From contig OX439050.1 of assembly GCA_949317995.1 (NCBI GenBank), forward strand, positions 19,918,061 to 19,982,060: DNA of 64,000 bases. The letters are read 5' to 3'. Position numbers and translations under genes: made by a program. Positions 1-50,899 of the stretch are shown here, in pieces. The first letter of the stretch is position 1; each line of letters starts with the position of its first letter. The DNA is from Acholoe squamosa (lineage: Eukaryota > Annelida > Polychaeta > Phyllodocida > Polynoidae). The notes beneath the pieces were generated by a model that saw only the letters and a program-made list of their open reading frames with translations, was not told where the DNA came from and made no database searches.

Positions 1-85
1 TGAGGCTGAGGAGACTGATAGTACACCAGGTGTCAAGAACCGGCAGAAGAACACAGAGGGGAAACCCGATATCAGTCAAGAGGAA

Positions 86-3000
86 GTGGCCAATGAGTTG
101 GCCAGGGTGGGGTGTGCCCAGCTTCCCCCGGGTCATCCTTGTCTCGAATTTTTGAAGGGATGTGGATTTGACCTCGGCGCTAAGACAGAACTTGCCAAGT
201 ACGCAAGTAGTCCTACCTACTTGAAAGGTAGGAGGTGGTATGCAGTTGTATCTGTGAGTGGTAGGTCTGCTGAGTTTCTTGTCGATACGGGTGCTAGCCA
301 CTCCTGTATTGCTAAGAGATTCTACGATCTTTTGCCTACGAATCATGAAACTTTCACAACGGAAGGAAATGCTCGTACAGCCGACGGTAGCATGATACAA
401 ACGTTCGGTAGAACATGTATGAGGTTCAGTCTACAGGAGGATAAGGACTTCATCCTTACTCCTACTGTGGCGAACATTGCGGATGATGGTATACTTGGTC
501 TGGATTTTGTTGCATTATATGGAGCAAGGTTAGATTCCCAGAGGGGAATATTGGAAGTGAGAGACCCGTATCATCTCGAAGTACAATGCGTACTTAGGCA
601 AGTGAGCAGTGTAGCCAGTGTAGCCCAGACTGTTAAGATACCACCAGACACAGCCTGTAATGTCTTATGTCGAGCGGACAGAAAGTTTTTAGGAAAAACT
701 GGAGTTGTAGAGCCAGATATGGCAATGTTGTCAAGTATCGGATTGGAATCCGCCGACGTTCTAGTAGCTAATGCTGCCTGGACAGTGGTTCCTATATCCA
801 ATACCGGTACGTACGTACAGAAGGATATGATCCTCGGGTCGGTTATCCTCTCTGAACTGGTAGAAGGCTGTGAACATGTTTTGGCTCCCGGAGTCCCTTC
901 CTCACCCGAAAGGAACCTGGAACTAGATACTCTAGTAGCCGAAAGCCATGTTGAAAATGATGAACAACGTGAAGCTCTAACTGACTTGTTATATAAGTAC
1001 CGTAAAGCTTTTGCAGCACCGAGTGAACAATTGGGGCGTACCGATAAGGTACTGCATACGATTGACACTGGTGAGAATGAACCTTTTAAGATTCCTTATA
1101 GAAGACTCCCACTAGCCAAAAAGAGGATAGCTGAGGAGGAGATAGCTAAAATGCTTGAACAGGATGTAATAATTCCATCAACCAGTCCTTGGTCTAGCCC
1201 TGTGTGCATGGTGACTAAGAAAGATGGTACCATCCGTTTTTGCATAGATTACCGGAAATTGAATGGTATGACCAAGAAGAATTCATATCCCTTACCACGG
1301 ATTGATGAGACTATAGACTCCCTTGGAGGTAAGCAATGGTATTGCTCTCTGGCAAGTGGGTATGCATCCGAAAGACATGGAAAAGACGGCCTTTTCCAGT
1401 CATATTGGGTTATTCCAATATAATGTGATGCCGTTTGGATTGTGCAATGCACCGGCGACATTTGAAGCCATGATGGAAACTTTATTAAGTGACCTATTAT
1501 GGAAGAAATGTCTCGTCTATCTAGATGATGTGATAGTCTTTGGGAAGACATACGAGGAATGCTTGGAAAATTTAGGTATGGTTCTGGGAAGGATCATAGC
1601 TAATGGATTGAAGCTGAAGCCCAAGAAATGCGATCTTTTTAAAAGATCTATTAATTACTTGGGACGAATAATCTCGAATGAAGGGATTAAAGCCGATCCG
1701 GAGAAACTGGATGCTGTGTCAAATTAGCAGGCACCCACGAATGCGAAAGAAGTTAGATCCTTTCTTGGATTCTGTTCCTATTACCGGGACTTTATCCCAG
1801 GATATTCAAGGGTCGCCTTTCCTATCCAGAGTTTGTCCCACTGGACACCTGGAGTGAGAAAGGAACGATTTCCTTGGGGATCCGAGCAAGACGAGGCCTT
1901 TATGAAAATAAAGGATTTGTTTGCAAGTACACCTGTGTTGAAGTACCCTACGGAGAATGATCATTTCATTCTAGATACTGATGCTAGTAACGAAAGCATA
2001 GGAGCCACGCTTTCTCAGGTCCAGGATGGGGTTGAAGTTCCTATAGCCTTTGCTAGCAACACGTTGAGTAAATCTCAAAGAAACTATTGTACCACTAAAC
2101 GTGAGTTGTTGGCTGTGGTGGTCTATACGAAGAAGTTCAAGCACTTTTTGTGGGGAAGTAATTTCACTCTATGGACTGATCATTCTTCTCTCAGATGGTT
2201 ATTGAACTTCAAGGATGCAGAGGGGATGATAGGTCGCTGGTTGGCGCACCTATCCGAATTCGGTCTAAATCACAGCCAGATTGAACACCGAGCCAGGGCA
2301 AAACATTTGAATGCAGATGCTTTGTCTAGAATCCCAGTGAGGAAATGTGCAAACGCTGAGTGCACTGATTGTGGAGCACACAATGCTGTGTTGGCAGGGG
2401 TTCGAGTACCTTTTAAAACCCAACGGAACATGTTTTGAATGGGTCCTTGGAGACCATCCAACAGTTCCAGGAGTCTGATGCAGTCACATCACGTTTGATT
2501 AAGTTTCTTAATCAGGGTATCTGTCCTCCAAGACCCGAAGTGTCATTGGAGAACAGGGAGATGAGACGATTCCTAGCTCAATGGGCCGAGCTGGAAGTCC
2601 GGGATGGTATTCTATTTCGATGGAAGAACTATTCTAATAGGAAGAAAACCTTGCAAGTTGTCATACCTAGTGCTATGCGACGAGATATTATGTATTTCTG
2701 TCACGGGCATAGAACTAGTGGACACTTTGGAAAGAAACGGTCTCTAGAACATCTATCCAGACGATACTATTGGCCTGGCATGAGTACAGATCTCACCCGA
2801 TGGGTAGAGACCTGTCCCGAATGCTGTAAGAACAAACCAGGACCCGGGTTAGGCAAACTGCCATTATCCCAGGAACTGTTTGGGGTAAGGTTTGCTAGGG
2901 TAGCTGTTGACATTATTAGTGGGATTCCTCCCACTCCTAGTGGCAACACGTGTATGATGGTCGTGTCAGATTATTATACCAAGTACACCCGAGTGTTTCC

Positions 3001-3668
3001 TTTACCGGATCATAAGGCTGTTACTTGAGTCTAGTCTGTGGCAAGAGTCTAGTCTGTGGCAAGAGATGTGTAATTGTCTGGCAATTTGCAAGACAAGAAC
3101 TAATCCGCAGAGTGATGGACAAGTGGAGAGGTTCAATAGGACTCTGATCCAAGTATTGAAGTCTCTAGTAAATGAGCAAATGGATGATTGGGATGAACAG
3201 TGTGAATTCGTGGTACATGCTTATAATGGCACTGTACACTCGAGCACAAACTGTTCTCCTAATCTCCTCGTTTTTGGAGAGGATTTGATTATGCCAGCAG
3301 ATTTAGTGTTTGGTGTAATAAGAATGAATCCGGAAACCCCTTGCCAGGTGATATTTGTAGAATCTCTAAGAGATAATTTCAAACAAGCCTATGAGAGGGT
3401 TAGAGATGAGTTGCAGAAAACTGCACATTGGCAGAAAGTTGGCTATGACACAGGTCTAAAAGCTATATTTTTTAATCTAGGGGATAGAGTGTTGCGTCTA
3501 CACCAACCTCTGGCCAACCTGAAATTAGCCAGCAATTGGGATGGACCTTTCACTATAACTCAGGTTATTAGTGATTGCACGGTGATTATTAAATCACAGC
3601 TTGGTAAATGTTACAAGTCGAATGTAACGAGGCTACGCCCATGGAGGGCGATGGTCTATTGGAAGTAA
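86..3668 (+). pseudogene. pol: Gypsy pol polyprotein (protease-RT-RNase H-integrase), broken
   Basis: The protease active site VDTGAS lies near base 283. The RT begins around 1030 with a fingers motif near [12 protein letters not shown], and the palm has the YLDDV catalytic box near 1519. RNase H (1950-2330) shows LDTDAS, the TKRELLA glutamate and TDHSSLRW. The integrase has an HHCC zinc finger (about 2700-2830), then the first core aspartate in VAVDII and the glutamate in QVERFNRTL. Damage: a small deletion around 1345-1360 shifts frame at the RT motif before WQVGM; a TAG at 1725-1727 replaces what is normally Trp; near 3025-3065 a TGA and an 18-bp tandem duplication mark a deletion that removed the second catalytic aspartate of integrase. 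The reading frame is otherwise well kept, so decay is fairly recent. Family assignment is firm; clade is not determined. Confidence 0.9.
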
Positions 3669-3955
3669 TGGAACAAAGTCGTGTTAAGCAACTCAAAGTG
3701 GTACCGACCCGAAAGCGAGGACCCGGGCGGCCACGGAAGGTTGTAGACCCGAAGAGGGTGGTGCCCCCTGTCGTAACATCCGGAAAACAGGGGAAAATAC
3801 AAAAAGTCTCAGCAGGTGCAGGTAAAAATAAGAGGAAAGGTCCTTCTAAGGCTAAGAAGACCTTGGAAAAGACTCTTATGGATACCAGGTCAATAAAAGA
3901 GGCCTCAAAACCTCTTAGACGCAGTCCAAGGTTGCTAAAGACTGCCGTAACCTAG
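3608..3955 (+). CDS. Basic tail with AT-hook after gypsy integrase
   Basis: This frame overlaps the end of the integrase frame (which ends at 3668 after the usual RLRPW motif) and runs on for about 95 codons. It is strongly basic, contains an AT-hook core (KRGPGRPRK, near 3708-3735), and ends with SKPLRRSPRLLK. AT-hooks bind the minor groove of AT-rich DNA, so the tail may help tether the integration complex to chromatin, as chromodomains do in chromoviruses; that role is inference. Whether it is expressed by frameshift or was joined to integrase before a frameshift mutation cannot be decided here. Confidence 0.5.
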   Translation: MLQVECNEATPMEGDGLLEVMEQSRVKQLKVVPTRKRGPGRPRKVVDPKRVVPPVVTSGKQGKIQKVSAGAGKNKRKGPSKAKKTLEKTLMDTRSIKEASKPLRRSPRLLKTAVT

Positions 3956-4598
3956 CCTGTTAACACAACGAGTGTGTTGTCCTGTACTGTGTACTGTTAT
4001 ATGTTGTAACCTTGTTCAATGTATATTTGAGCCGGTCATGAGTTTCTGGAAAAGGACCTATGACAATGTACCTATGGTTTTGGACCGATAATCCGGTGGA
4101 TATGCTTCTGCTATCCATAAACTCCATAATACCTAGCGAGTTGTCATGGTTGATACCTGAGTACAGACAGACGACCGATCGGGTATTGTATTGTTTTTAT
4201 GTAGGGGCGCGTGACCTAATTAAGGGCACGCGGGAAAGTTATTGACCCATTTTCGAATGGTCACGTGAGGCGCCGGTTTGATCATGCGCAGCGATTCAAG
4301 TTCGAGTATCCCGCCATATTGTCTTATTCCTGCGAAGGAAGAAGACGTGGCCGAGGGTGGTCTTACTCTATTTGGAGTTTGATGTGACAGCCGTGTTTCG
4401 AGGTGTGCCCTCGTTAAAAGGCACCCGCCTTTCACTGGGTAAGCAGTCTTAACTGCTTATCCGGTGGATTGGGATATTTAAATCCTGGAACAGCCACTTC
4501 TGTCGATGGCAGAAGCTGTCCGCCTTGGCGGTGGTGCCGGTGCAAGCACCCCGCCGTAGTATGGAAGTGGTTCTCCCAAGAGTCCCACTTATACATAC
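3956..4598 (+). repeat. Putative LTR and leader region of element A
   Basis: There is no ORF of note. The interval lies between the pol tail and the B insertion, where gag of the same family resumes at 11234. A purine run (GGAAAAGGA, about 4047) could be the polypurine tract, TATTTAAA near 4474 a core promoter, and TGGTTCTCCCAAGAG near 4569 a primer binding site. I see no second copy of this sequence in the window, so the LTR boundaries cannot be proven. Confidence 0.5.
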
Positions 4599-25203: not shown

Positions 25204-26347
25204 TTAAATTTTTTTTCCTCCTATGTAATTTGCTTGACAGGAATCCACACGTTGAACTTCCAACCCTTCGTAACCCTTCCAAAGCACGAAAGCGAAGCAT
25301 TTACCCTTGACAGTCTTGTAGTGCAGCACCTCTATCAGGTACCTGCTCTTGCCGTAACGACTCTTGTAGACCTTCTGAACCTCCTCCGGATAGAAGACCC
25401 CTTTTATCTCCTCCCCGGTGTCATCTTCCAGCTCGAACCCTCTACTACCCAACGTCTTGGCAACGTTGACGACTTCCTCCCTCCAATTTCCCTCGTACCC
25501 TTTGTCGAAGGCACCTTTAGCTCTCAACATTCTCACTCTGTCGCCTGGAGCTATGACGTTGGTGTGGGAGCGGAGAGCGTCTGTTTCTTCTTTTTTCCAT
25601 ATTGCCTTGTTTCTTAGGGAGGTCGTGTCTGTAGAAAATAGTTTCGCTGTTTTCCGAGGTGATGTCAGCAGGCGGCATTTTCAACGTTTTGTGGTGAGTG
25701 CAATTGCAAGAAGACACCACCTGGTCCAATACGTCTAGGTAGCGATATGTACGCTTGTGTGTGAAATAGCGCCACAGCTTCTCCTTCAGACTTAGATTCA
25801 AACGCTCCACTAGACTAGCTTTGATGTCGTCGTTTTCGCTAGTGAAAAAATCTATGTCTTTGCTCTTCAGGTGATCTTGGAAGGTCTTGTTGAGAAACTC
25901 TTTTCCCTTGTCCGTCTGAACGGAGCGCGGGTGTCTCTCGGCGGTCATCTTTTCGAACACCTCGGTGACAGCTGCACCACTTTTGGTTTTGGTGGGAGCT
26001 GCCTGCGCATACCTGGAGAAAACGTCGATGGCCGTGACCACGTAGCAGAACCCATCGTTGTGAGACGCCGAAGCTTGCTTGTCCATCAATTCTAACTGCC
26101 ACTGTTGATCGATTTTCCCGGTGATGGTTTCGTTCTTCGCGAACTTTCTCCGAATGGGTTCATGTTTAGTGTAGGCGTCCAGAGACACCAAGGCATCTGG
26201 GACGAAGGCGGGATCTTGGTGGCGGAAATGATGTTTCTGGAGTTGGGTGACGCTGGTGAAACTGGAGGGTGCTTTCACGTCGGTGTATTTAGCCACCACA
26301 TGTCTCTTTTCTTTTTCCTTTTTGGTCAGTCTTTTAGACCAAGCCAT
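25204..26347 (-). pseudogene. int: Polinton integrase (retrovirus-type DDE), one frameshift
   Basis: ATG at 26347, in a good initiation context, opens 276 codons. After an N-terminal linker comes the core: WQLELMDKQ, then FCYVVTAIDVFSRYAQ, VQTDKGKEF with the second catalytic aspartate, and ASLVERLNLSLKEKLWRYF with the catalytic glutamate. The first catalytic position, usually Asp in an xDLVDM context, is Glu here (LELMD), which may abolish activity. A frame change near an A6 run at about 25590 leads into 25536-25204. That part has an SH3-like C-terminal domain (DRVRMLRAKGAFDKGY ... VFYPEEVQKV) and a chromodomain-like end (FVLWKGYEG). Confidence 0.88.
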
Positions 26348-26540
26348 GGCGGGGTGGCACGATTGTGTGATTTCCTTTTCTTTCCTTGGGTGCTTTTCCT
26401 GAAGGAGTCGGGTCGAAGTGTTTTTTTAACCAGTAGTCGGAGTATCATAAACTCCGTCCTCAGCGTGGTCGTCACCCCCCTTACGACGGGAAAAACGGGG
26501 AAAAAAGGAGGAGGGACCTACGAGGTGAGTGTCATCCCCC

Positions 26541-27402
26541 GTTGTAATAGTTTTCGTCAAAGTCGTCGTCAGTGTCTTGCTCGTTGGTGATCAGTCGCTT
26601 CCTCCCTCTGCCAAGAGGTGTACTGTGCGAAGCTTTGGCACCACTGGTTGTTTTATAGAGCTGGTTTCCGATCAAGGAACCGGTGGGATCTTCCACCCTC
26701 AGGACTTGCTTTACCTCATCCTGGCGTCATTAAGTAATCCGCTATGCTTATTCAGTCGTCCGGATTCGTTTTCTCACCAATTATTTCGCTCACCGAGCCG
26801 TCGTCGTTCCACCTGACCAAGTCGGATTTCTGCAGTTTCTTGAAGAGTTTGGTGGTGGTGTTGCGTTTCCTCTTTGGAACTTGTTCGAGCAACCCCTCGG
26901 GGAGAGAGGGAGGTTTCTCGGGCGGCGACGGCGGTCTCACAGGAGCAAAAGCGGGAATCGTGTGGTTGTTTGGATTGGCAAGGAAAAATTGTAACCTGTT
27001 CAAAAGTTTCTTGTATTTCAGCATTTTTCCACGTGATTTCAAAGTGGGGTCATTCAACACTAGGTCCAAGTCCCTGTAGACAAACTGTAGCACCTGGTAA
27101 TGCTGCTTTGGGATGTAGTGCTTGTTCCGCCTGTCTGTAGTAATAAGCCATGTTATTGAGGGGTGGGGGGGATACGGCGGCGGCAGCGGTGTTGGAAGCA
27201 GAGGGACGGTTGTTGTTTTCACACTCAGCAGGATGAGGTACACCAACACCAGCAGCAACACCAACAGCAGCACCGTCACCAGCAACAGCAACAGAAACAG
27301 CAACTGTGGGGGGCGACATCAGGAACTCCTCGTAATTTCGAGAGGGTCTTAGGATCGCCGAGAGCCAAGCGCTTGTAGTGTTGCTCCTCCGGGTCCGTCA
27401 TC
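26541..27402 (-). pseudogene. Conserved Polinton protein of unknown function, frameshifted
   Basis: A likely ATG at 27402 starts a frame (MTDPEEQHYKRLALGDPKTL) that shifts near 27340 into an Ala/Val-rich repeat tract made of GTC/GCT-type triplets (27180-27310). The longest frame, 27303-26752, then encodes a hydrophilic protein: NKHYIPKQHYQVLQFVYRDL, KMLKYKKLLNRLQFFLANP, a Pro-rich linker, and LQKSDLVRWNDDGSVSEIIG. The tail continues in another frame to about 26541, ending acidic (TDDDFDENYY). Proteins with this helical block and a W-DDG motif sit between ATPase and integrase in many Polintons; their role is not known to me. Confidence 0.55.
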
Positions 27403-27449
27403 GTCATTGAGGTAGGCGGCGGTGGTGGAGAGGTGTCGAATGACGAGCT

Positions 27450-27782
27450 CTATATGTGGAGAATCCTTTTTATAAGGGGTAAGGCCATGCCTATCAGAGC
27501 GGGAATTATAAAGCCACCCCTTTGAACCAAGACGTTTCTCTTTCTTTTGACGGACGTAGCTTTTTTGCTCACCGTCCTCAAGACGTCAGCAGATTCTCGA
27601 AGACTTTCTAGTTGGTCCTCGGTGAGCGGAATGTTTGCCTCCAGTAAATTCTGACAGATTTCGCTCAACCTCCTGATCAAATCCTCACTTCCAGAGCCTA
27701 TTAAATGCTCACAATCCTCCGGCAAACACTTTGCCAAATGTTTAAGGGTGCCGTAATGTCTTTTGAGGCGATGAGTAGCCAT
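27450..27782 (-). CDS. Small basic Polinton protein with C-terminal hydrophobic segment
   Basis: ATG at 27782 overlaps the stop of the ATPase gene (TAATG), a compact viral-style junction. The 110 residues have an N-terminal basic helix (RLKRHYGTLKHLAKCL), a middle helical part (LIRRLSEICQNLLEANIPLTEDQ), a basic stretch (KRKRNVLVQRGGF) and a hydrophobic end (IIPALIGMALPLIKRIL). Proteins with this KK-rich VQxGGF plus hydrophobic tail recur next to the ATPase in Polintons and adintoviruses. A membrane-active or capsid-lining role, like adenovirus pVI, is a guess. The ORF appears intact. Confidence 0.75.
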   Translation of the reverse strand: MATHRLKRHYGTLKHLAKCLPEDCEHLIGSGSEDLIRRLSEICQNLLEANIPLTEDQLESLRESADVLRTVSKKATSVKRKRNVLVQRGGFIIPALIGMALPLIKRILHI

Positions 27783-28525
27783 TACTTTCTCTTTTTCTTT
27801 TTGTCTAGCAGAACGAACACGATCTGGTCATCTATGGACGTCAGGGAGGAGCGTATTCTCTGATCGTCCGGTGTTGTCTGCTTGAAGTCCAGAAGCAGGT
27901 ATGAGTGAGGACGCTTGAGTTCACGGGTAAATATACTCAAGACGGCCGTCGCCCTTGAGGGAAACACCTGATGAGACAGAGTACCTATCTGTCCCATGTC
28001 TTGAGGGTTCTTGAAAATGATCATGTAGTGAGCGTTCAGACTCATAGTTCGAAATTCAGGTGATTTCTGGAACAGGTTCTGAGTGATATATATGACGCTC
28101 ATGTTCCAGTGATGGGAATATTTGGTGAAGATGTCGGCTACCACTTGCTGATTGGAACTGCTCATTAGATCGTCTAATATCAGTAGAGTGTGCAGTCGTC
28201 GAAGAGTGGTGGTAGACGTCGACGATGATTCTTCGTTTCCCGCTATGTCTTCTTTGCTGGGAAGACCTTCTCTGAATTCTACTCCGTAGTCTTTTTGCAT
28301 TTTTTCAAAGAGGGCCTGCCACTCGCCGTGATGGTAAAAGATATTTTCCACCGGCGGTGTGACCAAGTTGTTAACGTCGCTCAGAAATCCACTCACCAAG
28401 TGCGATTTTCCACAACCCGATGGACTGCTGATGATACAACTGGAGGGTCCTTGTAATCGGGGATCAAAATTGATTTTGGAGAAGGGTGTGATTTTACCGC
28501 TCGTCCATTTTCCAACGGTCGTCAT
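27782..28525 (-). CDS. FtsK/HerA-type genome packaging ATPase
   Basis: ATG at 28525 opens 247 codons with no break. The Walker A motif is SSPSGCGKS (about 28430-28404), the Walker B motif LLILDDL (about 28170-28150), followed by a sensor-like VIYITQNLF and LNAHYMIIFKNP. This is the A32-like ATPase that pumps DNA into capsids in Polintons, virophages and large DNA viruses. The final residues are a basic KKKKRK tail. It is the best preserved gene of the element, in contrast to the decayed capsid genes. Confidence 0.9.
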   Translation of the reverse strand: MTTVGKWTSGKITPFSKINFDPRLQGPSSCIISSPSGCGKSHLVSGFLSDVNNLVTPPVENIFYHHGEWQALFEKMQKDYGVEFREGLPSKEDIAGNEESSSTSTTTLRRLHTLLILDDLMSSSNQQVVADIFTKYSHHWNMSVIYITQNLFQKSPEFRTMSLNAHYMIIFKNPQDMGQIGTLSHQVFPSRATAVLSIFTRELKRPHSYLLLDFKQTTPDDQRIRSSLTSIDDQIVFVLLDKKKKRK

Positions 28526-48340: not shown

Positions 48341-48704
48341 CACTTTTTTCAAACCTCAAAAAAAATCCAGAAGTACAGAAATAAAGATCTTTATATTGGA
48401 CTATTTCATATTATTATCAGCAGAGATACAATGGTACACAGAGATAAGGTACTAAGGTAGCATGTCCATCCCTGATATGCCACCCCTGCTGCCACTGGGT
48501 GTTTAGTTGTGCAAATATTTACTAGGTGGCAGCACTCAATAAAAACGATTTCTAATTCCCACCCCTCCCTTTTAACTTTGTGATAATTTATAAAGGTTTT
48601 CAAACTATAGATCTACAGCTTTAATATGCTTTTTGAATCAATCACTCTGACAATTATAGCAGGCCAAAACGTTTCTCTCCAGAAGACCATTGTCAGAGAA
48701 AAGT

Positions 48705-50300
48705 GCAGGAAACCGATGACGGCGGTCTAGCTAGTCCTGAGGACTAAGGCGTCTGCCGCGTCCGCACTGACGCAAATACGCGGACTCTACGCAGAGCTTC
48801 CGGTGGTGAGCGTAGGTGCGCGGGCGTAGTGGTAGTCCTCAGGACTATAGCTAATAATGCGATGCTTAAGTCTAATGCTGCTAGTAGCTAGTAATATGTA
48901 AGCTAGTAAGCATAGTCCTAAGGACTAAGGCCTAGTCCCCAGGACTAAGAATATGAGGATATTGTCCTAGGGACTAATTGCACATTCCCATGAATTACCT
49001 TGCAAGCCACATGACTTTGTAAAAGATTGTGCTGTTAGTCTCCAGGACTAAGCTTTCTGCCCCCTGGGGACTAATTCATAGACTCAGGGACTACTTGTTC
49101 AGTCCTGAGGACTACAAAAACATTTGCCTAGTCCTTGGGACTAATGCATGTGGTTCTGAGGACTAATTCATTGATTGATGTCTAATGTAATTGTGACTAG
49201 GGATGTAGTCCCCAGGACTTCAAATTTAGTCCTGAGGACTACTTTTTAGTCCCCATGATTGCTCTGTGTAGTCTCAGGGACTAAAGATACAGTCCTGGGG
49301 ACCAAGGACTGTGTCTCTAGTCCCAAGGACAATGTTCTAGTCCCCAGGACTGTATCTTTAGTCCCTGGGACTGCACACTGAAGGTAGGCCTATGGTCCTA
49401 AAGCATAGTCCTTGTGTTTAGACCCTACATCCCACCTACCCCTTGAGACTTGGCAGATATAGATAGTCCTCGGGACTAAGACCTAGTCCTCAGGACCGGC
49501 TGGACTGAAATAGTAGTCCCTGGGACTATGTCTCTAGTCCCCAGGACTACATCTTTAGTCCTGAGGACCAGGCAGCTACATCTTTAGCCCTCAGGACTTA
49601 ACAGTTAGTCCCAGGGACTGAACCTTGTACCAGGGTATAGATATGGAAAAGGCTGCGTTGATCAATTTCTAGTCTTCAGAACCATTCTTCTAGCCCGAGG
49701 ACTATACACTTTAAGTCCTTAGGACTAAAGTTGTAGGCCTCAGGACTAACGTCCAATCACCAGGAATGTCTCTAGTCACTAGCACTAGGTCACTAGCACT
49801 AGATGTGTAGTCCTCAGGGCTAAAATATCATCCTGAGGACTATAATCTTTAGTCCTCAGGACTAAGTTTTTAGTCCCAGGGACTATGTCTTTCTAGCACC
49901 GAGGGCTGTTCCGCGTACCCATGTGGTCGTAAAAATAAAACGTAAGGCCTTAGTCCCAAGGATTGTCCCTGGGACTACACATTAGTCCCAGGGACTAAAG
50001 ATAGAGTCCTAGGGACTAGATTATAGTCCTTGGGACTTAGACCCTGGCTCATAATCATCCAAGAGTAGCGAATAGTCATGGGGCCCTGGGGATGAGATTC
50101 ATAGTCCAAGGGACCACCTGTTTAGTCCTGAGGACTAAACTGTAGAACGGCGAGTAAAGGCGCGTTCTAGTCCCCAGGACTAGATGTCGGCGCGTGGCTG
50201 CTGCTGGCCGCTGCAGCGTACGCGGCAAACAGGGCCAGCGCGGACGCGGCAGATGCCTTAGTCCTCAGGACTAGCTAGACCGCCGTCATCGGTATCCTGC
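48705..50300. mobile_element. 1.6-kb element made of a dispersed AGTCC-GGACT palindrome array
   Basis: The ends are 61-bp inverted repeats (48705-48765 and 50240-50300) with about two mismatches, starting GCAGGA and including GATGACGGCGGTCTAGCTAG. The nine bases GAGAAAAGT occur directly on both sides, a perfect 9-bp target duplication as in Mutator-like elements. The interior holds about 45 copies of a 14-15 bp self-complementary motif of the form TAGTCCYNRGGACTA, spaced irregularly (roughly 10-60 bases), sometimes with one or two changes. There is no ORF. A duplication this clean means recent movement, so the element is non-autonomous and needs a transposase from elsewhere. Confidence 0.85.
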
Positions 50301-50899
50301 GAGAAAAGTCAGGGTTAGAAGAAGACTGACCCAGTCCGTGCGCCATGTGGGACAGTTTTTCTTTGCTGCTTATAATTTTGTATCAGAATAGTTCAAAAAA
50401 GGTCAAAGAAGATATGATTCACTTCCTCAGCTACTTTCACTTGGAAGTCCTCGTGTCTCTTCAGGGTCACAGCAAAATGAATAATCTTGATTGGTACCAT
50501 TTCAATAGCATCATCAAAATTAGATCATCTCATCCCCGAATTTTACCTCTCCCTCATCTCTCATCTTCCTAGTTCATAGACAGGGTATGTCTGTTTCCCA
50601 CTCCTCTTATCCAGAATTCTATCCTTTCTATTTTCACCTAATTGCCCTTCATTAATTGATAACTGTTCTTTTTTAAATGTTATTTTTCATTGTGACCATC
50701 TAAGTGTCAGAGGCACACTCTTCTCATCCCAATAATTCCTTTTTCCATGCAAGATAATTTCACACAGAGTAATTACTCTGGGGAATCTGTTTGTTTACTT
50801 TCATATAAATAAAAAGATTTAAGAACTGAATCATGTTATTGCAATATTGAAATAGAAAAGGGGAACCGATAATAATGCAGTGGTCAGTGAATACGTCTC

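Follow-up and report, generated by a model that had tools for sequence, protein, structure and literature searches.

A non-coding DNA transposon of Acholoe squamosa with a 15-bp palindrome repeated throughout its body

Results and discussion

Architecture of the element

The window analysed here comprises 64,000 nucleotides of the polynoid annelid Acholoe squamosa (assembly GCA_949317995.1, contig OX439050.1, positions 19,918,061 to 19,982,060 of the forward strand), and at 48705..50300 it holds a complete non-coding DNA transposon with terminal inverted repeats (TIRs) and a 9-bp target-site duplication (TSD), whose body is packed with copies of a short palindrome (Table 1). A first-pass annotation, made from the letters of the window, had described such an element at this place, and the observation holds. 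The perfect 9-bp direct repeats that it reported are present at the exact coordinates on both sides; the inverted ends are likewise real, although their length had been put at 61 bp and they can be aligned over 65 bp. The body is indeed without an open reading frame, its longest stop-to-stop frame being 62 codons, and across 25 copies of the family the corresponding maximum is 47-125 codons, the longest frames lying in copies with inserts. TIRs, TSDs of fixed length, occurrence at many sites and the lack of coding capacity place the element among the non-autonomous TIR DNA transposons that resemble miniature inverted-repeat transposable elements (MITEs).

The palindrome, TAGTCCYNRGGACTA, is found 43 times inside the element with up to three mismatches (15 exact, 16 with one, 9 with two and 3 with three), close to the 45 or so copies of a 14-15 bp palindrome first estimated. 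The remaining 62,386 bases of the window contain five matches, every one with three mismatches; equal density in the flanks, which had been named as a possible objection, is not what we see, as no match with two or fewer mismatches occurs in the other 62.4 kb. When the window was scanned in tiles for short palindromes that recur (5-base arms, four or more occurrences per 1.5 kb), only the element was flagged.

The spacing had been called irregular and proves to be quasi-periodic, with 20-22 bp in 21 of the 42 distances between neighbouring motifs and 28-30 bp in another 5, and Tandem Repeats Finder (TRF) reports several decayed 20/21-bp arrays in the element. At base, the body is thus an old, decayed 21-bp minisatellite with a palindromic unit. 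Spacer words are found in both orientations (e.g. TATCTT/AAGATA), and this, with the near-palindrome at 49265-49377, indicates that units were copied in inverted order too.

Table 1. Features of the element and its borders (window coordinates)
Feature	Position	Strand	Basis or remark
Left 9-bp target-site duplication, GAGAAAAGT	48696..48704	+	TSD
Complete non-autonomous element, 1596 bp	48705..50300	.	Both ends, perfect TSD, relatives elsewhere with other TSDs
Left terminal inverted repeat, 65 bp, 95.4% to right TIR	48705..48769	+	Alignment
Palindrome TAGTCCTGAGGACTA in left TIR (bp 28-42)	48732..48746	.	Motif scan
Subterminal motif-free stretch, 66% G+C (window 43%)	48747..48832	+	
Body array with 41 motifs (3 mismatches or fewer), predominant spacing 20-22 bp	48833..50182	.	
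113-bp self near-palindrome (81.7%), units repeated in inverted order	49265..49377	.	
Right subterminal motif-free stretch, 72% G+C	50183..50258	-	
Right terminal inverted repeat	50236..50300	-	
Palindrome in right TIR (bp 28-42 counted from right end)	50259..50273	.	
Right 9-bp target-site duplication, GAGAAAAGT	50301..50309	+	

A family of roughly 490 copies

The assembly (1.48 Gb, 63 contigs) contains 981 matches to the TIR pattern with up to two mismatches (495 forward and 486 reverse; controls gave 0 and 1), which corresponds to roughly 490 copies. The window element is thus one member of a non-coding TIR transposon family inserted with 9-bp target duplications. We examined 41 copies end to end, comprising 25 in a main set, 4 longer ones, 5 of the 8 subfamily-2 copies fetched (in the other 3 the right end was absent from the stretch taken) and 7 more. 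Perfect 9-bp TSDs flank 27 of them, all different, while 7 have one mismatch and 7 have more, so that the other genomic copies with distinct target duplications which the annotation proposed to look for do exist. The perfect TSDs show a weak target preference, G2, T3, A7 and C9 each being present in 14-16 of the 27 against a flat 25%.

An array of the 15-bp palindrome was present in all copies whose motifs we counted, with 20-52 motifs in the main 25 and 14 to 78 per copy or composite overall. The flanks are free of the motif (up to two mismatches) in 24 of the 25, the flank of the remaining copy (L010) holding a second copy of the element. In 24 of these 25 copies both TIRs have, at bp 28-42, the palindrome with no more than three mismatches; most of the 25 were found with a query that included the left TIR motif. 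Genome-wide there are 7138 exact occurrences of TAGTCCNNNGGACTA and 64 of the reversed pattern, and the first 50 of the 7138 places all fall within four copies of the element. The 25 copies together contain 362 exact motifs, a mean of 14.5; at this rate about 490 copies would account for about 7100, and the motif is therefore all but private to this transposon.

A second subfamily (L005, L007 and L081-L088) has the TIRs and the first ~600 bp in common with that of the window. Beyond this point its interior is mostly unalignable to subfamily 1, yet is filled with the same motif between other spacers, and its consensus holds 46 motifs (up to three mismatches). One common internal deletion, leaving 20-21 motifs, is seen at three sites (L008, L011 and L024, with 2, 3 and 1 TSD mismatches respectively). 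Some copies hold inserts, part of them other mobile elements, and among the TIR ends listed (100 of the 981 matches, all exact) are three TIR pairs 840-843 bp apart. A 4008-bp composite (L077, bases 30-4037) consists of two element copies in opposite orientation within a single perfect 9-bp TSD, and the two fused copies may therefore have moved as one unit.

Conserved arms, a free centre and the question of hairpins

A logo was drawn from 84 units of the two subfamily consensus sequences (51 + 33; shuffles of the first give 4.4 at the same cut-off). Its arms carry 0.93-1.62 bits per base and base 8 carries 0.03 bits, which agrees with the earlier remark that copies vary mostly in the central bases; selection of the units by their arms inflates the arm values, but cannot have lowered that of base 8. 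Bases 7 and 9 are almost always Y and R and vary independently of one another (p=0.81).

The annotation had further described the two half-sites as staying complementary, but their changes prove to be independent. Among the 504 arm pairs of the 84 units, 378 are intact, 121 are changed on one side, 2 carry double complementary and 3 double non-complementary changes, where chance would give 8.5 double changes, 2.8 of them complementary. This lack of compensation argues against selection for hairpins. Independent change of the half-sites had been named in advance as a result that would tell against the element as described; it weakens the hairpin interpretation only. The unit looks like the logo of a symmetric-dimer site with an unread centre, not like a stem maintained by pairing.

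An array selected for its structure, whether multi-hairpin RNA (one of the annotation's proposals) or DNA cruciforms, and perhaps serving to supply double-stranded RNA, would fit the predicted folding of the RNA strand of an 851-base piece, which is far better than that of 20 shuffles (z -14.8) and includes one duplex of nearly 40 bp, and also the more frequent private changes (defined below) in the would-be loop. However, any mutually complementary set of repeats folds well, just one motif in 29 pairs its own two arms in the minimum free energy fold of the body, and compensatory changes are no more numerous than chance. We consequently rejected structural hairpins as the constraint, and hold it most improbable that they are the selected feature.

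A test for selection on the arms

In a test modelled on that of McDonald and Kreitman, private changes were taken to postdate the last insertion, and shared changes to have been passed on by elements that jumped again. It used 41 aligned subfamily-1 copies, partial ones included (a different set from the 41 with known ends), and omitted gap-adjacent positions, CpG positions, columns with too few copies, L077, L078 and the copies of subfamily 2, to which L005 and L007 were assigned. In the arms 443 non-CpG columns show 84 private and 22 shared changes; the figures are 152 and 72 for 806 spacer columns, 33 and 9 for 112 columns of the centre, and 5 and 6 for 88 TIR columns. Arms and spacers have the same rate of private changes, but shared changes are scarcer in the arms than in the spacers (nominal p=0.037), as would be expected if the elements that continued to jump needed the motif. 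Of 494 circular shifts of the labels, 1.2% gave values as low, and the depletion is also seen with stricter (p=0.001) or looser (p=0.022) motif calls and with 34 copies (p=0.040). On these sequence comparisons, selection on the arms is supported but not proven.

Superfamily and the search for a transposase

The 9-bp TSD lies in the 8-11 bp range given for Mutator-like elements (MULEs, including Phantom and Rehavkus) in PMC6446971, and G/C at the outermost bases is described as frequent in Mutator-like elements (PMC13359780). The length of the duplication points to this superfamily, and specifically to the Phantom/Rehavkus type, of which the element is probably a non-autonomous member.

The transposase with the same ends that the annotation suggested looking for was found neither at 30 MULE loci nor among the listed TIR pairs. 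Among the 35 listed pairs of exact TIRs (on C1 and most of C2, 840-4008 bp) we found no copy that codes for a transposase; the two pairs longer than 3 kb, which were examined fully, contain frames of at most 162 codons, and three frames compared with Pfam gave no match. As the listed ends are 100 of the 981, all of them exact, an autonomous copy may have escaped notice. The genome contains 36 matches to the MULE domain PF10551. At none of the 30 of these loci examined does the TIR occur within 1.5 kb, and more than 600 kb separate each of the six matches on C1 and C2 from the nearest listed exact TIR end; one MULE locus, L071, has a single motif with two mismatches. Of the 46 matches to PF12762 (Merlin, IS1595-type), six are on C1 and C2; one of these falls past the last listed end, and the other five are separated from every listed exact TIR end by more than 139 kb.

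Other candidates were considered and rejected. The ZSWIM1/3-like MULE genes of L071 and L075, present at five genome places, are poor partners, with ~380 kb between their place on C2 and the closest listed TIR end. The four longer copies were rejected as autonomous elements: L077 is the two-copy composite, inserts are present in L078 and L079 (four frames of L077-L079 gave no Pfam match), and in L080 lies a second, different family.

Several MULE-domain loci (L051/L052, L061/L062, L065-L067 and L072-L074) are 99.6-100% identical over their full ~3.2 kb at different places, and have been either recently active or recently duplicated. Adjoining the ZSWIM1/3-like MULE genes are 29-bp minisatellites (L071, 2432-2968; L075, 1-693 and 3005-3159), of which the L071 unit contains the near-palindrome TCCTTCAAGGA.

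Other mobile elements

The second family, apparently young and unrelated to the main element, is inserted in L024 (element bases 113-1087) and L080 (448-1423). Its members are 975-976 bp long, with ends CCCAGTGAAC...GTTCACTGGG and 2-bp TSDs (GG, TA), and their 27 AACGTT/AACATT/AATGTT words are confined to 57-202 and 687-957, so forming subterminal arrays in which self-complementary AACGTT words are repeated at both ends. There are 261 candidates in the genome, and 18 of the 40 scored, the query's own place included, are identical over 120 bp.

Elsewhere in the window, at 25517-28525 on the minus strand, an integrase core (rve) frame and, after it, a second frame that matches Adeno_IVa2 weakly (E 7.7e-5) are possibly an element of Maverick/Polinton type. 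Retroelement remains at 86-3668 on the plus strand, with protease, RNase H and weak integrase frames, are Gypsy-like.

A proposed multiplied binding site and its alternatives

The explanation that we favour, and in which we place about even confidence, is that of a non-autonomous element in which a site for a dimeric transposase has been multiplied through the body, the arms being kept by those lineages that moved. On this view a dimeric DNA-binding protein provided in trans, most likely a transposase of the family itself, would recognise the palindrome. The TIR site with a spacer of ~6 bp would have been multiplied, in both orientations, into a 21-bp minisatellite, until the array filled the body. 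Each half-site (TAGTCCY) would be read separately and base 8 left unread, so that what is preserved in the arms would be their sequence and not their pairing. By carrying additional sites the element would attract transposase or raise its local concentration, lineages that retained their arms would have moved on, and after insertion the arms would decay like other DNA. As no transposase was found, we infer protein binding from the motif within the TIRs, the genome-wide count, the conserved arms around a random centre and the modest depletion of shared arm changes; two proposals of the annotation, an array of sites for a dimeric DNA-binding protein and an expansion linked to transposase binding, fit these data jointly.

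A number of results count against this multiplied-site explanation, beginning with the fruitless searches for a coding partner. Subfamily 2 (10 copies) shows the depletion in the same direction without significance (p=0.61; 18% of shifts), and counts of polymorphic columns within subfamilies differ weakly (p=0.14; p=0.037). Where the subfamilies can be aligned with each other, arms and spacers are similarly diverged, both in the main block (6/208 against 7/183, p=0.78) and in shorter ones, and an apparently strong conservation of the motif between them (p=1e-6) was rejected as an artefact of a non-homologous stretch of alignment. The TIR columns, in which constraint should be strongest, have no deficit of shared changes, a result blurred by the choice of copies for their TIR likeness. 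Shared changes are few, the copies are kin by descent, and several tests were tried, with p values uncorrected. Part of the variability of the centre may be mutational, since the central triplet has an excess of private changes (33/112, p=0.019 against the arms), and the deletion common to L008, L011 and L024 indicates that elements with half the motifs moved too.

Several of these same results would suit a passive minisatellite, in which a 21-bp palindromic unit expanded by slippage and inverted template switching in an ordinary MITE and has no function. The 21-bp periodicity, the occurrence of spacer words in either orientation and the units repeated internally in inverted order are readily explained in this way, as are the spread of copies with 20-21 motifs, the non-significant test in subfamily 2 and the lack of constraint in the blocks alignable between subfamilies. 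It accounts less well for base 8, which a neutrally decayed minisatellite should keep about as well as its neighbours and which is random beside conserved bases, a pattern that favours a binding site. Nor does it predict that shared but not private changes should be depleted in subfamily-1 arms, or that two mostly unalignable interiors should both be filled with the same 15-bp motif between different spacers. We regard passive expansion as somewhat unlikely, though a real contender.

The sites could alternatively serve a host protein, such as a transcription factor, silencer or chromatin protein. A dimer-type site is silent on whose protein binds it, and constraint restricted to the arms fits a host protein as well as a transposase; against this, the exact motifs in the genome are as many as the transposon copies predict, with the first 50 places all in copies, and the same site occupies a fixed place in both TIRs. 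A host partner therefore seems to us very unlikely.

The multiplied-site explanation can be taken further, to a body that would act as a multivalent transposase trap: the element, a parasite on a parasite, would win the transposase of an unseen autonomous partner with ~45 dimer sites instead of two, and selection among element lineages would maintain the array as a device for competition in cis. We consider this speculative and unlikely; if it were true, the second family, with its AACGTT words at both ends, would be a parallel case.

Relation to known elements

The nearest systems are Rehavkus and Phantom/Tm1. Rehavkus, a MULE outgroup recorded from arthropods and annelids, has a 9-bp TSD, TIRs of 26-400 bp and an internal minisatellite; it differs in its PHD-finger transposase and in the position of the minisatellite before the 3' TIR, whereas here the array runs throughout a non-coding element (PMC6446971). 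Tm1, a Phantom/Foldback MULE of root-knot nematodes, has mostly 9-bp TSDs with no clear target consensus, MITE-like non-coding members and a variable number of 13-15 bp tandem repeats at its ends. Those repeats, however, build the Tm1 TIRs and their consensus is not palindromic, whereas the present element, known without a transposase, has 65-bp TIRs and a palindromic unit that fills the body (PMC3169594).

The very long tandem-repeat TIRs of Foldback and Galileo are not seen here, the TIRs being 65 bp and the array lying in the body. In Galileo, of the P superfamily, three THAP sites within the TIR were studied, as against ~45 palindromes in the body outside the TIRs, and the same paper stated in 2013 that the function of repeats of this kind in Phantom and Foldback was untested (PMC3688188). 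CACTA (En/Spm) elements also have many short family-specific sites, which are bound by TNPA and act in cis in transposition, but these are subterminal and belong to another superfamily with a 3-bp TSD (PMC2613891). The SIRC elements of Arabidopsis resemble ours in their short repeats with diverse spacers, thought to derive from MITE interiors and some with palindromes; they are plant elements of direct repeats, ~57% without palindromes, and are described as having lost their TIRs (PMC10342631). Ours, by comparison, has a palindromic unit and intact TIRs and TSDs.

Repeats of transposase sites are thus already known in TIRs (Galileo) and subterminally (CACTA). No element with a body-wide array of palindromic sites appears among the titles or abstract openings listed by our searches of the openly available literature, Repbase lying outside this scope, and we know of no case in which transposase-site repeats form the whole body of an element with short TIRs. 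With roughly 490 natural copies, a dimer-like site of 15 bp and a test that separates changes before and after insertion, the Acholoe family makes the question of repeat binding testable by sequence, and the 15-bp site is an obvious probe for binding assays.
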